Shown here: piece after piece, positions 6,463 through 11,863 of the stretch
Position numbering within the stretch: position 1 is the first letter of the stretch
How the letters are laid out: each line of letters opens with the position of its first letter
Source of the DNA: Radicibacter daui
Lineage (GTDB): Bacteria; Pseudomonadota; Alphaproteobacteria; Radicibacterales; Radicibacteraceae
Direction of reading: 5' to 3'
Length of the DNA: 64,000 bases
NCBI GenBank assembly: GCA_030657355.1
Contig: CP131056.1
Coordinates: forward strand, 3,554,501-3,618,500
Notes under the pieces: generated by a model
The model's database searches: none
What the model was told of the DNA's origin: nothing
What the model saw: the letters and a program-made list of their open reading frames with translations, nothing else
Program-made: the position numbers and the translations under genes

Positions 6463-6500
6463 TTTAGTGCACCGTCACCGTAACTTCGTCACCGTAACTT
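6463..6500 (+). repeat. Short dispersed repeat, copy 3 with partial duplication
   Basis: TTTAGTGCACCGTCACCG followed by TAACTT, then a second CGTCACCGTAACTT. A further degenerate CCTGTAACTTC follows at about 6501-6511. It shows one base change from copies 1 and 2. Confidence 0.8.
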
Positions 6501-6539
6501 CCTGTAACTTCACAAAGTAAGTTTTGTTAGGAGGTGAAA

Positions 6540-7283
6540 ATGAGCACCGATGGAGATGAAGAAAATAAAGTAAATAAAATTTATAGAACGTCAATCTTGA
6601 AAAGATCTCTTCTTGATTATGAACTAATGTTGGATTCCGAGACTCATAGGGGCTTCTTTTTAAATAAAGATACTTTAAAATCACTTTTTTCCGAGCAAAA
6701 AGAATTAATAAAAAAGTTAAACATTACTTATTTGGTAACCGCTGTCGGCGCTTCCATAGTTTTTTTAGGACCGTTTCCTGCTGATGTTAAAGTCAGTGCG
6801 GGATCGTTTGAGGCGCCCGTCAATATTATACCTCAACAGATATTTTCTCTAGTTACGTCGATATTTTTTGGGCAACTCTTAGTGTACATGGCATCTTTTA
6901 TAATATTAAACACCATGATAACAAAAATTTTACAGAAGGAAGGCGTAGAGGCTTGGCATTTCTTTTACGGAGGTTTTGATGCGACACATTTATGGACTAC
7001 GTTGGTGGCTCCAAGAAATGTTGGGTATAAATCACCAAAAAGGCACTGGGCCCTTGTGGTTTTAGTTCTTCTCACAACCTTTATATCAATTCTAACCTGT
7101 TCTGCCGTTGTCCTGATTTCTGCCTTTCTATCTTTTAAATCGGCACTGAATTCAGACATTTTTTACTTAAAGTTTTTTGGATTTGTTGGACTATTTGTTG
7201 ATATTGTATCGATTTTTTGTTTTTTGTTTATGATCATCATCCCGATTCCGTTCAGGTTGTCGAAGAATAGTGAAAAGAGCTGA
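6540..7283 (+). CDS. AT-rich four-helix membrane protein of unknown function
   Basis: I do not recognise this family. The protein has 247 residues. A charged cytosolic N-terminus of about 60 residues is followed by predicted membrane helices at about 61-79, 101-124, 170-198 and 210-236, with a hydrophilic loop (125-169) containing WHFFYGGFDATHLW. ATG 6540 is set by an excellent ribosome site (TAGGAGGT, 4-5 nt upstream); an in-frame GTG at 6534 overlaps it. Base composition is strikingly AT-rich, with many ATA, AAA and TTA codons that are rare in neighbouring genes, which indicates recent transfer. It lies inside the repeat-bounded islet. Small membrane proteins in such islets sometimes act as defence effectors, but nothing here proves that. 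Confidence 0.75.
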   Translation: MSTDGDEENKVNKIYRTSILKRSLLDYELMLDSETHRGFFLNKDTLKSLFSEQKELIKKLNITYLVTAVGASIVFLGPFPADVKVSAGSFEAPVNIIPQQIFSLVTSIFFGQLLVYMASFIILNTMITKILQKEGVEAWHFFYGGFDATHLWTTLVAPRNVGYKSPKRHWALVVLVLLTTFISILTCSAVVLISAFLSFKSALNSDIFYLKFFGFVGLFVDIVSIFCFLFMIIIPIPFRLSKNSEKS

Positions 7284-7458
7284 GCGTAAGACTATGATTT
7301 TTATTGCTTATTCAGATAGGGAGATTCGGTAATACTGCATTATATATAGGTTCTTGAAATGGCCAGCACCTAAAACGACGTCTCGGTGAGACCGACCACC
7401 GATTGTGGATCGACAAGCCACCCAATATAGGCTAAAAATCCTAATGTCACCCAAAAGC

Positions 7459-7495
7459 GGAAGGAAAAGGACAAAATGCCTGTCTCCTTCCTTTT
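7459..7495 (+). terminator. Probable terminator after the islet membrane protein gene
   Basis: The outer stem GGAAGGA / TCCTTCC encloses an inner GGACA / TGTC pairing and is followed by TTTT. It lies about 180 bp after the stop codon, so it is only moderately convincing. Confidence 0.4.
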
Positions 7496-7530
7496 AAAGC
7501 TCGCACCTCGCGCCCACGAGCAATGCCTCC

Positions 7531-8229: not shown

Positions 8230-10080
8230 TTAGCCGCCGGCCAGTTCTTCCCGCTTCATTTCCAGCTCAAGCCAGCGCTCTTCGGCGGCAGCATGTTCGC
8301 CATGGGCCGCCGTCAGCCGGGCGGTGGCGGCATTAAAGCCGGCAGGGTCGCGGGTATAAAAATCGGCGCCCGCCAGTTTCTTTTCCAGCGCGGCGATTTC
8401 CGCCGTCAGCTTTTCCATCTGCACCGGCAACTGGTCGAGCTCGCGCTGCTCCTTGAAGGAGAGTTTGCCGGAGGGTTTGCTGGCCGGTTTGGCCTTTGCC
8501 GCGCCACTGCTGCCGGAGGCCGGCGGCGCCACCGAGCCCACGCGGGTGTCGGACGCAAAACCATCCGTACCACGCCCGGCGATGCGCTGGTGGCGGGCAT
8601 CGGTAAAGCCGCCGGCATATTCCATCGCTTCGCCCTCCTCCACCCAGATGGTGCTGCTCACCACACGGTCGAGGAAGTCGCGGTCATGGCTCACCAGCAA
8701 GAGCGTGCCGTCATAATCGCTCAGCACTTCTTCCAGGAGGTCCAGCGTCTCCATGTCGAGATCGTTGGTCGGCTCGTCGAGGATCAGCAGGTTGGAGGGG
8801 CTGGCGAGCGCCTTTGCCAGCAGCAGGCGGTTGCGCTCGCCGCCGGAGAGCGAACCCACCGGCTGCCTCGCCTGCTTTTCATCAAACAGGAAGTCGCGCA
8901 GGTAAGAGACGACATGGCGCGGCTTGCCGCGCACCATCACCTGGTCACCGCCGCCGCCAATCTCGCTGTGCACCAGCGCATCCCACAGCGTCTGGGTCGG
9001 GTCGAGCGTCTCGCGCTTCTGATCGAGATAAACCGGCGTCAGGTTGGTGCCGAGCTTCACCTTGCCGTGGTCCGGCGCCAGATGGCCGGTCAGCATGCGC
9101 AAAAGCGTGGTCTTGCCGGCACCATTGGGGCCGACGATGCCCACCGCATCCCCGCGCTGGATACGGGTGGAGAAACTGCGGATGATCGTGCGGCCTTCAT
9201 AATCCTTGCCGATGGCCTCAGCTTCCACCACCAGCTTGCCGGAGACGGCGCCGGTCTCGATCTCCAGCGCGGCGGTACCGGCACGGGAAATCTGCGCCGC
9301 GCGCTGCTCGCGCAGGTCCCCCAGCGCGCGAAGGCGCCCCTGGTTGCGCTTGCGCCGCGCGGGGATGCCGCGCTTGGCCCATTCGGTTTCCTGCGCAATC
9401 AGCTTGTCGAGCTTGGCGCGCTCCACCTCTTCCTGCGCCCAGATGCCCTCCTGCCAGTCGGCAAAGCCGTGGAAGGGGCCATCCATGCGCCGCAGCACGC
9501 CGCGGTCGAGCCACAGTACGCCATTGGTCACGCGCTCCAGAAAAGCGCGGTCATGGCTGATGACGACCATCGCACCGCGAAAACCGGAAAGCTCCTCTTC
9601 CAGCCACTGGATGGCCGGCAGGTCGAGATGGTTGGTCGGCTCGTCCAGCAGCAGGATATCGGGCTCACCCACCAGCGTGCGGGCCAGCGCCGCGCGGCGC
9701 GCCTCGCCGCCCGAAAGCCCGTCCGTGCCGCGGGTCGGCTCAAGGCCGAGCGCATGCAGCAGCGCTTCGGCGCGGTAGGTCTCGTCCGCTTCCGCCTCCG
9801 GCAGGCCGCCGGCGGCATAATCAAGCACGGTTTTGTAGGCCGAAAGGTCCGGCTCCTGCGGCAAGTAAGCGGCGCGCATGCCGCCCTGCTGCACCCGCTC
9901 GCCCCGGTCCGGTTCGATCAGGCCGGCAACAACCTTCAGAAGCGTGGATTTGCCCGACCCGTTGCGGCCGACCAGCGCCATGCGGTCGCCGGCGGCAATG
10001 CCGAGATCGAAACCATCAAAGAGGGTCGTCTCGCCGAAACCGAGCGAGAGATCCTTGAGCGTGAGAAGCGGGTTGGCCAT
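8230..10080 (-). CDS. uup: ABC-F family ATPase, Uup-like
   Basis: Cytosolic ABC-F protein of 616 residues with no membrane domain. Uup-type members act on ribosomes or DNA structures and affect precise transposon excision in E. coli. Nucleotide-binding domain 1 has Walker A GRNGSGKST (about residue 38) and signature LSGGEARRAALA. Domain 2 has GPNGAGKTT (about 317) and LSGGERNRLLLAKAL. Walker B motifs read LLLDEPTNHLDL and LILDEPTNDLDME. The inter-domain linker is charged. The C-terminal extension from about residue 540 is a Lys/Glu-rich coiled coil, as in Uup. It faces the islet tail to tail and is an ordinary single gene. Confidence 0.93.
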   Translation of the reverse strand: MANPLLTLKDLSLGFGETTLFDGFDLGIAAGDRMALVGRNGSGKSTLLKVVAGLIEPDRGERVQQGGMRAAYLPQEPDLSAYKTVLDYAAGGLPEAEADETYRAEALLHALGLEPTRGTDGLSGGEARRAALARTLVGEPDILLLDEPTNHLDLPAIQWLEEELSGFRGAMVVISHDRAFLERVTNGVLWLDRGVLRRMDGPFHGFADWQEGIWAQEEVERAKLDKLIAQETEWAKRGIPARRKRNQGRLRALGDLREQRAAQISRAGTAALEIETGAVSGKLVVEAEAIGKDYEGRTIIRSFSTRIQRGDAVGIVGPNGAGKTTLLRMLTGHLAPDHGKVKLGTNLTPVYLDQKRETLDPTQTLWDALVHSEIGGGGDQVMVRGKPRHVVSYLRDFLFDEKQARQPVGSLSGGERNRLLLAKALASPSNLLILDEPTNDLDMETLDLLEEVLSDYDGTLLLVSHDRDFLDRVVSSTIWVEEGEAMEYAGGFTDARHQRIAGRGTDGFASDTRVGSVAPPASGSSGAAKAKPASKPSGKLSFKEQRELDQLPVQMEKLTAEIAALEKKLAGADFYTRDPAGFNAATARLTAAHGEHAAAEERWLELEMKREELAGG

Positions 10081-10155
10081 GGCCAGCGTCTATGGCCCAA
10101 CGCCCGCCTGCGCGCAAGGGGCGCCACATGCGGATCAGCCCTGTCCGCCCCGCTC

Positions 10156-10800
10156 TCAGGGCCCGGCCCCGACCGCCGCGATGAAGCCGGTATAGTTGGC
10201 GATGCTGGAAGCGGCAAAGGAAGGCCCGATGGTCGAGGGCGGTGCGACGAAGCCTGTCAGGGCCTGCGCCTCGGCAGTCGTGCGGGTGGAAGCCTGCAGC
10301 GTGGCAAGATTGTCGAGCGCCGCCGACAGCACCATTGCCTGCTGCTGGACGGGCGTAGCGGCAAAGAAGGTCGGCGCCAGCCAGGCCTGCCAGTTGTTGG
10401 TCCTGACAGCCAGCAGCTCCAGCCCGCCATCGCCAGTATAGAACGGCGCCGCCGTCGCGTCCGCCGCGCAGGTGACGGTCAGATAATTGGGGCTGGAGAG
10501 GAAATTGACCTGCAGCAGGTTGAGGTTGACCGTTACCTCGGTCCAAGGCCCCGGCGCGTAGCTGCCGAACCAGGTCTGGTACGGCGCCCAGCTGTTGGTC
10601 AGAATGGCCTGTTTGTTGGCGCCGATCTGGACGTTCGTGAGGTTGATCGCCGTATCGAGCGCGGTGAACAGGGAGGTCAGCGCCGTGAGCTGCTGGGCGG
10701 TGCAAGGGACTGCTGCGAATGGGTTGGGAACGATCTGCTGAGCATCGGCCGGGCGGGTCAGCAGGAACAGGCCCGTTACAATCAAGGCCACAAGGCGCAT
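10156..10800 (-). CDS. Secreted M35-like pseudo-peptidase, paralogue of the upstream gene
   Basis: Exported protein of 214 residues with signal peptide MRLVALIVTGLFLLTRPADA. It is clearly homologous to the aspzincin encoded just upstream: both have ILTNSWAPY at residues 67-75, the next residues run TWFGSY against TWFGAY, and both share a Cys-centred segment and a C-terminal Asn-Tyr block. The zinc-binding HExxH is absent (ALDNL lies near that place) and the GTxDxxYG block is also lost, so it cannot be a metallopeptidase of this type. A 26-nt stretch is identical in the two genes (10583-10608 and 11293-11318). ATG 10800 follows a GGGAGG site. The gap to the peptidase gene is 89 bp, on the same strand, so the two are likely co-transcribed. 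An inhibitor, chaperone or binding partner of the peptidase is possible but untested. Confidence 0.75.
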   Translation of the reverse strand: MRLVALIVTGLFLLTRPADAQQIVPNPFAAVPCTAQQLTALTSLFTALDTAINLTNVQIGANKQAILTNSWAPYQTWFGSYAPGPWTEVTVNLNLLQVNFLSSPNYLTVTCAADATAAPFYTGDGGLELLAVRTNNWQAWLAPTFFAATPVQQQAMVLSAALDNLATLQASTRTTAEAQALTGFVAPPSTIGPSFAASSIANYTGFIAAVGAGP

Positions 10801-10889
10801 GAGAACCTCCCTCTCCGGGGCAGGAACATCGACAGGAACAGGCCCGCACGGACGGAACGGCAGACAAGCCGCCCCGTCCGGCACCGGCC

Positions 10890-11510
10890 TCAGTTGATGT
10901 CTTCGTTGAAGAACTCGTAGTTGTCGGCGTTTACCACGGCGAAGGCCGGGTTGTTGGTCGCAAGCCACTGGGCTTGCTGGGTGCCGTATTCAAGATCATC
11001 CGTGCCGCCGACGGCGTGGGAGAATTCGTGAATAACGGTCCCGGCCTGCGTATCGTATCCAGCCGACGGCGGCAGGGTGAAGAAAGTGGTGCAGAACCAC
11101 ATTTCCACGTCACCATCCTGATCCAGCACGGTTGCCGCGATGTCCCCGATCTCGTCGCAGGGCGGCGTGCCGTCCGCCGGGCAATTGACCACCAGATTGG
11201 CGCTGGAGGTCAGCTTCGTGGAAATGCTGCCCATGACGTTGTTCACGCGTGTCAGCCGCCCGGCATCATAAGCACCGAACCATGTCGTGTATGGCGCCCA
11301 GCTGTTGGTCAGAATGGCGGCGGTGTTCGTTGCGATATTGTTGATGGTGTTGCCGGCCCAGGTGGTCGCGGTTGTTGCGGCGTTGCCGATGGTGGTGGCC
11401 TGTGCCCCCGAACAACCGCTGGCGACCACAATCTGCATGTTCGCGGTGGCGGTTCCGGCAATCCCAACGATGGAGGCGATAAGGGAAAGGGCAATAAGAT
11501 AACGGCGCAT
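10890..11510 (-). CDS. Secreted M35 (deuterolysin/aspzincin) family zinc metalloendopeptidase
   Basis: Exported peptidase of 206 residues. The signal peptide ends near Ala22-Ala24 (MRRYLIALSLIASIVGIAG...). The aspzincin active site is complete: HEFSH at 161-165 and GTDDLEYG at 169-176, whose Asp172 would be the third zinc ligand. Members of this family often cut at lysine and are common in fungi and scattered in bacteria. Cysteines at 33, 110, 118 and 140 could form disulfides in the periplasm or outside. ATG 11510 is preceded by GGGAG at a good distance. It is the first gene of a two-gene unit with an inactive paralogue. No other protease genes are near, and the substrate is unknown. Confidence 0.87.
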   Translation of the reverse strand: MRRYLIALSLIASIVGIAGTATANMQIVVASGCSGAQATTIGNAATTATTWAGNTINNIATNTAAILTNSWAPYTTWFGAYDAGRLTRVNNVMGSISTKLTSSANLVVNCPADGTPPCDEIGDIAATVLDQDGDVEMWFCTTFFTLPPSAGYDTQAGTVIHEFSHAVGGTDDLEYGTQQAQWLATNNPAFAVVNADNYEFFNEDIN

Positions 11511-11863
11511 GAGGGTGCTCCCTTGAGACATAAAAAAGGAGCTGGCCGCACCGTGCGTGTCCGGAACGAGGCCCGGCCAGCACGTAAAGGTTTTTTCTTG
11601 AGATATAATTTGCAATTTTAATCAGAGCGCAGGAATAGAAGCCTGCGTGCGCCCCTTTCGCGGCGGCACCGTTGCTATCTGTTGTCACAGATCAAGTCGG
11701 GGAGGCGGCGGCGGGTGTATTCTGTACGGCGACTCAGGCGGCGCCGGACCGAAGCCGGCGGCAGTTGCTGCGACCCGTCAGCCAATCCGCCTTGCAGGCC
11801 GTAGCGTCATCGGGAATGATGACGCAAAATCCAACGATACAAAGCCTTTGAGGAACGCACCCC

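Follow-up and report, generated by a model that had tools for sequence, protein, structure and literature searches.

In a window of 64,000 nt (the whole stretch of DNA that was analysed), tandem duplication of the gene for an exported, propeptide-less metallopeptidase of family M35 (aspzincins) has produced a second gene, whose product, here called the twin, has no active site; sequence comparisons together with a fold model suggest that it is a maintained periplasmic pseudoenzyme with the M35 fold. Inactive M35 relatives are already known in fungi (Pra1; PMC3386192); an adjacent bacterial pair of an active and an inactive member, with identical patches in both, is new as far as the material searched shows, and comes from one genome.

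The two genes and their products

Both genes lie on the minus strand with intact frames, and each has a good ribosome-binding site and an N-terminal signal sequence (Table 1). The product of the upstream gene matches PF14521 with 95.3 bits (curated cut-off 30) and, among proteins of known structure, GfMEP (1g12, E 4.8e-19) and AsaP1 (2x3a, E 2.9e-17). It contains what defines an M35 aspzincin, namely HEXXH and the third Asp ligand in GTXXDXXYG; the HEFSH and GTDDLEYG that the initial annotation had read in this protein are indeed there. The catalytic domain directly follows the signal sequence, so that the propeptide, usual in bacterial members though no strict criterion of the family, is absent.

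Table 1. Features of the peptidase gene, the twin gene and the spacer between them
Feature	Coordinates	Strand	Basis
M35 (aspzincin) metallopeptidase CDS, 206 aa	10890..11510	-	PF14521, PDB matches, ribosome-binding site and ORF
Peptidase ribosome-binding site AAGGGAG	11518..11524	-	sequence
Predicted peptidase signal sequence, aa 1-23, cut after TATA by eye	11442..11510	-	sequence
HEFSH zinc-binding/catalytic motif, peptidase aa 161-165	11016..11030	-	sequence; H161, E162, H165 invariant in alignment A5
GTDDLEYG motif with third zinc ligand Asp, peptidase aa 169-176	10983..11006	-	sequence; D172, Y175 invariant in alignment A5
Patch 1 in peptidase, aa 65-74, AILTNSWAPY	11289..11318	-	8/9 informative codons same as in twin
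Patch 2 in peptidase, aa 102-115	11166..11207	-	same codon as in twin at all 9 identical residues
Strong intercistronic hairpin, 49 nt, -38.6 kcal/mol, no U run	10841..10889	-	z -2.9 vs shuffles (89-nt spacer)
Twin CDS, putative M35-fold pseudoenzyme, 214 aa, intact frame, no HEXXH, no His	10156..10800	-	homology searches, alignment, tree, fold model
Twin ribosome-binding site AGGGAGG	10806..10812	-	sequence
Predicted twin signal sequence, aa 1-20, ADA/QQ cut by eye	10741..10800	-	sequence
Patch 1 in twin, aa 65-74	10579..10608	-	codon comparison with peptidase
Patch 2 in twin, aa 102-116	10453..10497	-	codon comparison with peptidase

The twin has no match to any Pfam family at E up to 10, PF14521 included, and neither protein has a match in NCBIfam; the profile of M35 alignment A5 matches the twin with E 1e-5. 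Both motifs are missing from it, as had been noticed initially, and with HEXXH and the third Asp ligand it has lost the catalytic Glu and every zinc ligand; in addition, the mature twin contains no histidine at all. What it keeps is the Trp-Phe-Gly core (WFG) and, as C33 and C111, the first of the two Cys pairs, which is near-invariant among M35 proteins, while both members of the pair that matches C118 and C140 of the peptidase are lost; the putative disulfides are assigned after the pattern of GfMEP. The composition of the twin is charge-poor, with 7 acidic and 3 basic among 194 residues.

The initial annotation regarded the proteins as secreted, which is doubtful. In the complete 5.06-Mb genome, in which control families were found, neither a secretin (PF00263) nor GspF/T2SSF (PF00482) had a match; a type II secretion system is therefore not apparent, and a periplasmic location becomes the likelier one. 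Judging from their Sec-type signals, both proteins probably reach the periplasm, and release from the cell is unsupported.

The stop codon of the peptidase gene and the start of the twin gene are 89 nt apart. The strong hairpin in this spacer was rejected as an intrinsic terminator by the terminator scan because no U run follows it; it resembles an intercistronic mRNA-stabilising element. A promoter scan found none. In the leader of the peptidase gene, at about 11530-11585 (minus strand), a hairpin followed by TCCTTTTTT is terminator-like, and attenuation is possible there.

Descent, retention and fold of the twin

The duplication proposed in the initial annotation is supported by several comparisons. 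The local alignment of twin and peptidase scores 175 against 41±7 for shuffles; a profile search of its own genome with the twin returns the peptidase as the only match (E 1.7e-13); and when the twin sequence by itself is compared with 34 M35 domains in hhalign, residues 3-149 align with a probability of 97% (E 8e-11). Chance similarity is rejected by the shuffle scores and by hhalign. As to the extent of the alignment, which had been described as covering the N-terminal half and a C-terminal block, the former is certain with patch 1 (169 vs 36±7 shuffled) and without it (86 vs 32±6), whereas the C-terminal block by itself is marginal (32 vs 23±4, P about 0.04). A tree of 53 rows groups twin and peptidase as sisters in 200 of 200 bootstrap trees (support 99/77); the branch of the twin is extremely long, the asymmetry being about 10 vs 0.73 for the peptidase, and long-branch attraction is a possible cause of the sisterhood. 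The two proteins also have in common the ILTNSWAP stretch and its insertion, which no other M35 row displayed in the alignments contains.

Part of this stretch is identical at the nucleotide level. Positions 10583-10608 equal 11293-11318, an exact identity of 26 nt as first reported, and resampling both proteins by codon usage gives a run of at least 26 identical bases with P = 0.0066. Within patch 1 the same codon is used at 8 of 9 positions where 4.3 are expected; outside it, identical residues share their codon in 25 of 51 cases (expected 27.4), that is, as often as codon usage predicts, and synonymous sites are therefore saturated. The initial annotation had pointed to conservation or gene conversion of one patch, which is suggestive in its main point but missed the second patch at aa 102-115: when the order of matches is permuted, the longest run has P 0.07, and the occurrence of two runs of nine identical codons has P 0.005. 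That ILTNSWAPY stands at equal residue numbers, also remarked upon there, is correct (it starts at residue 66 in both) but means little, since the two signal peptides are of unequal length and indels make up for the difference. The codon patterns thus lend moderate support to local homogenisation of the patches, be it by short gene conversion events or by a nucleotide-level or other local constraint, two causes that are inseparable from one genome.

The twin gene has the appearance of a coding gene, and its retention as such, assumed from the outset, is supported. It contains no stops and no frameshifts; GC by codon position is 0.60, 0.53 and 0.84, like that of neighbouring genes; codon usage is host-like, and the in-frame codon likelihood is as good as that of the peptidase gene. 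Had the peptidase gene drifted neutrally until each site had one substitution on average, about 4.7 stops would be expected (P of none 0.005), with a GC3 near 0.66. Frame, GC3 and codon usage also led us to reject a sequencing or frameshift artefact. The lack of stops, the GC3 of 0.84 and the codon usage argue that, for most of the time since it arose, the twin was under selection for its protein product; they speak to the past of the gene and do not show present-day selection.

An AlphaFold model of the twin guided by a 48-row M35 alignment, from which four plasmid-record rows were left out, has a pLDDT of 74.5; without an alignment the value is 35.2 and the model uninformative. Compared by VIA-align, the guided model, which depends on the M35 alignment, superimposes on AsaP1 with Z 15.9 (158 residues, rmsd 2.5) and has Z 14.7 to GfMEP and 14.0 to Pra1, unrelated rows reaching about 6 or less. 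The model thus suggests that the twin folds as an M35 domain.

M35 proteins elsewhere and possible roles of the twin

A search for the pair in other genomes, as had been proposed, brought up no second genome with a twin; this is a weak test, as the search for relatives in this sparsely sampled lineage offered nothing nearer than the same class. At the sensitivities used, relatives of the twin were found neither in 58, 385 and 398 genomes (overlapping draws) nor in plasmids and genome contigs; two weak matches in one genome search with the twin were an M35 peptidase and a stretch with four stops. The peptidase has no match in phages, and in viral contigs none when searched alone, alignment A2 finding one distant M35 there. 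Few genomes of the class have M35 at all (6 of 385), and the source genome as a whole encodes one M35 enzyme and one twin.

Among the M35 matches found, loss of the motif is exceptional. Some 125 other M35 matches, tandem pairs included, keep HEXXH in all but one unrelated lone case, and some 100 M35 domain matches from genome-contig, plasmid, viral and class loci, two-copy loci included, all lie in ORFs that keep it. Among the phylum loci L150 alone lacks HEXXH, and it has no specific relation to the twin. This 222-aa M35 homologue (L150:1462-2127, genome G404) represents an independent bacterial M35 pseudoenzyme; no M35 neighbour is present within its 3.5-kb locus, so that M35 proteins without HEXXH may act alone.

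Most bacterial M35 relatives carry an N-terminal propeptide of 150-200 aa. Enzymes that lack it and have no twin nearby occur in 13 genomes of one genus, in Rhizobium (L029) and in Ruegeria (L023); L029, L023 and L118 are without propeptide like the peptidase described here. This type of enzyme thus has no general need of a twin. In one alphaproteobacterial genus, the majority of the genomes sampled share a conserved, single propeptide-less M35 peptidase (L118, L119 and L121-L130).

With its HEXXH, GTXXDXXYG, WFG and all four cysteines, the peptidase resembles GfMEP, AsaP1 and the bacterial members of PF14521, most of which differ from it in having a propeptide; the twin shares the fold of these aspzincins in its alignment-guided model and differs in the loss of the catalytic residues and of one Cys pair. 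Our preferred reading is that the twin is an M35 pseudoenzyme that works by contact with other proteins, the likeliest targets being the neighbouring peptidase or the substrates of that enzyme. The roles proposed initially, namely inhibitor, folding helper, substrate decoy or heterodimer partner, are all conceivable. Since other propeptide-less enzymes manage without a twin, this partner role is put forward tentatively and falls short of probable, and a binding role independent of the peptidase is a serious, if somewhat doubtful, alternative. According to the latter, the M35 fold would have been reused for binding in the periplasm or envelope, with a function unrelated to the peptidase, for which the very long, asymmetric branch of the twin, its shortage of charged residues and the existence of the HEXXH-less homologue without M35 neighbour (L150) can be cited, as well as Pra1, an inactive M35 relative with a function of its own (PMC3386192); yet the genes are adjacent, on the same strand and identical to each other in the patches, and this hints at a constraint that the two still share, or at conversion. 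Pra1 of Candida albicans, a zincophore with HRXXH in place of the motif and a relative of deuterolysin, is an exported protein of the M35 fold that has no peptidase activity, as the twin is predicted to be; unlike the twin, Pra1 keeps both motif histidines and binds zinc, and it is fungal and not described in PMC3386192 as the partner of an active M35 enzyme. Neither HRXXH nor His-rich zinc sites occur in the twin, and a role as zinc carrier, very unlikely for a protein without histidine, was rejected.

That the twin is a relic, a redundant inactive duplicate which drifts and has no present function, would agree with its occurrence in one genome only, with the loss of every catalytic residue and with a C-terminal half that is barely alignable; we consider it unlikely, as neither stop nor frameshift has appeared in spite of saturated synonymous divergence, GC3 and codon usage are those of the host, and one Cys pair was kept as a pair while the other was lost as a pair. 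Far less credible still is that active-site residues have moved to other positions and the twin catalyses another reaction: such migration is on record for some proteins called pseudoenzymes by motif (PMC10211241), but the twin has no histidine and few acidic residues left, and its sequence suggests no other metal or nucleophile site.

The scheme behind the partner role is as follows. After tandem duplication the product of the second gene lost zinc ligands, catalytic Glu and one Cys pair. The twin is probably made from the transcript of the peptidase, a common transcript being assumed, at a level differing from that of the peptidase, and because of its position between the genes the hairpin may be what sets the unequal amounts. 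In the weakest step of the scheme, the twin would then hold the peptidase inactive or help it fold, in trans, and so take on the job that the propeptide has in most bacterial relatives; the two patches would form a surface that both proteins have and that conversion or selection keeps similar. Inhibition is the role described for the propeptides of peptidyl-Lys enzymes of M35 (PMC11985622), and inactive metallopeptidase homologues can assemble with an active one, as in the M16B heterodimer of the mitochondrial processing peptidase, where an active metallopeptidase is joined by a homologous inactive partner (alpha/beta; PMC11266112). The M16B heterodimers differ in fold and family and are obligate, whereas twin and peptidase are a candidate pair; this 2024 review of inactive metallopeptidase homologues does not mention M35, and the examples considered from it are mostly eukaryotic. 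The fully specified version, in which a propeptide-less peptidase is controlled by the dead paralogue next door and two surface patches are kept identical by gene conversion, is improbable taken as a whole. A bacterial M35 peptidase and its own dead copy would make a simple two-gene system for asking how pseudoenzymes acquire regulation; should the twin stand in for the absent propeptide, the pair would illustrate a shift of zymogen control from cis to trans, and bacteria would offer an example of a paralogue taking over the job of a propeptide.

Neighbourhood of the pair

Downstream, on the same strand, the pair is followed by the gene of an ABC-F ATPase; upstream lies that of an acetyl-CoA synthetase in the opposite direction. 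An ORF at 8293-10920 was rejected as a gene, for it overlies the ABC-F gene in antisense and is a mechanical ORF. An ORF at 6534-7283, membrane-like and without a Pfam match, is part of an AT-rich island (6500-7500; 35-39% GC vs 63% GC for the window) that is probably acquired DNA.
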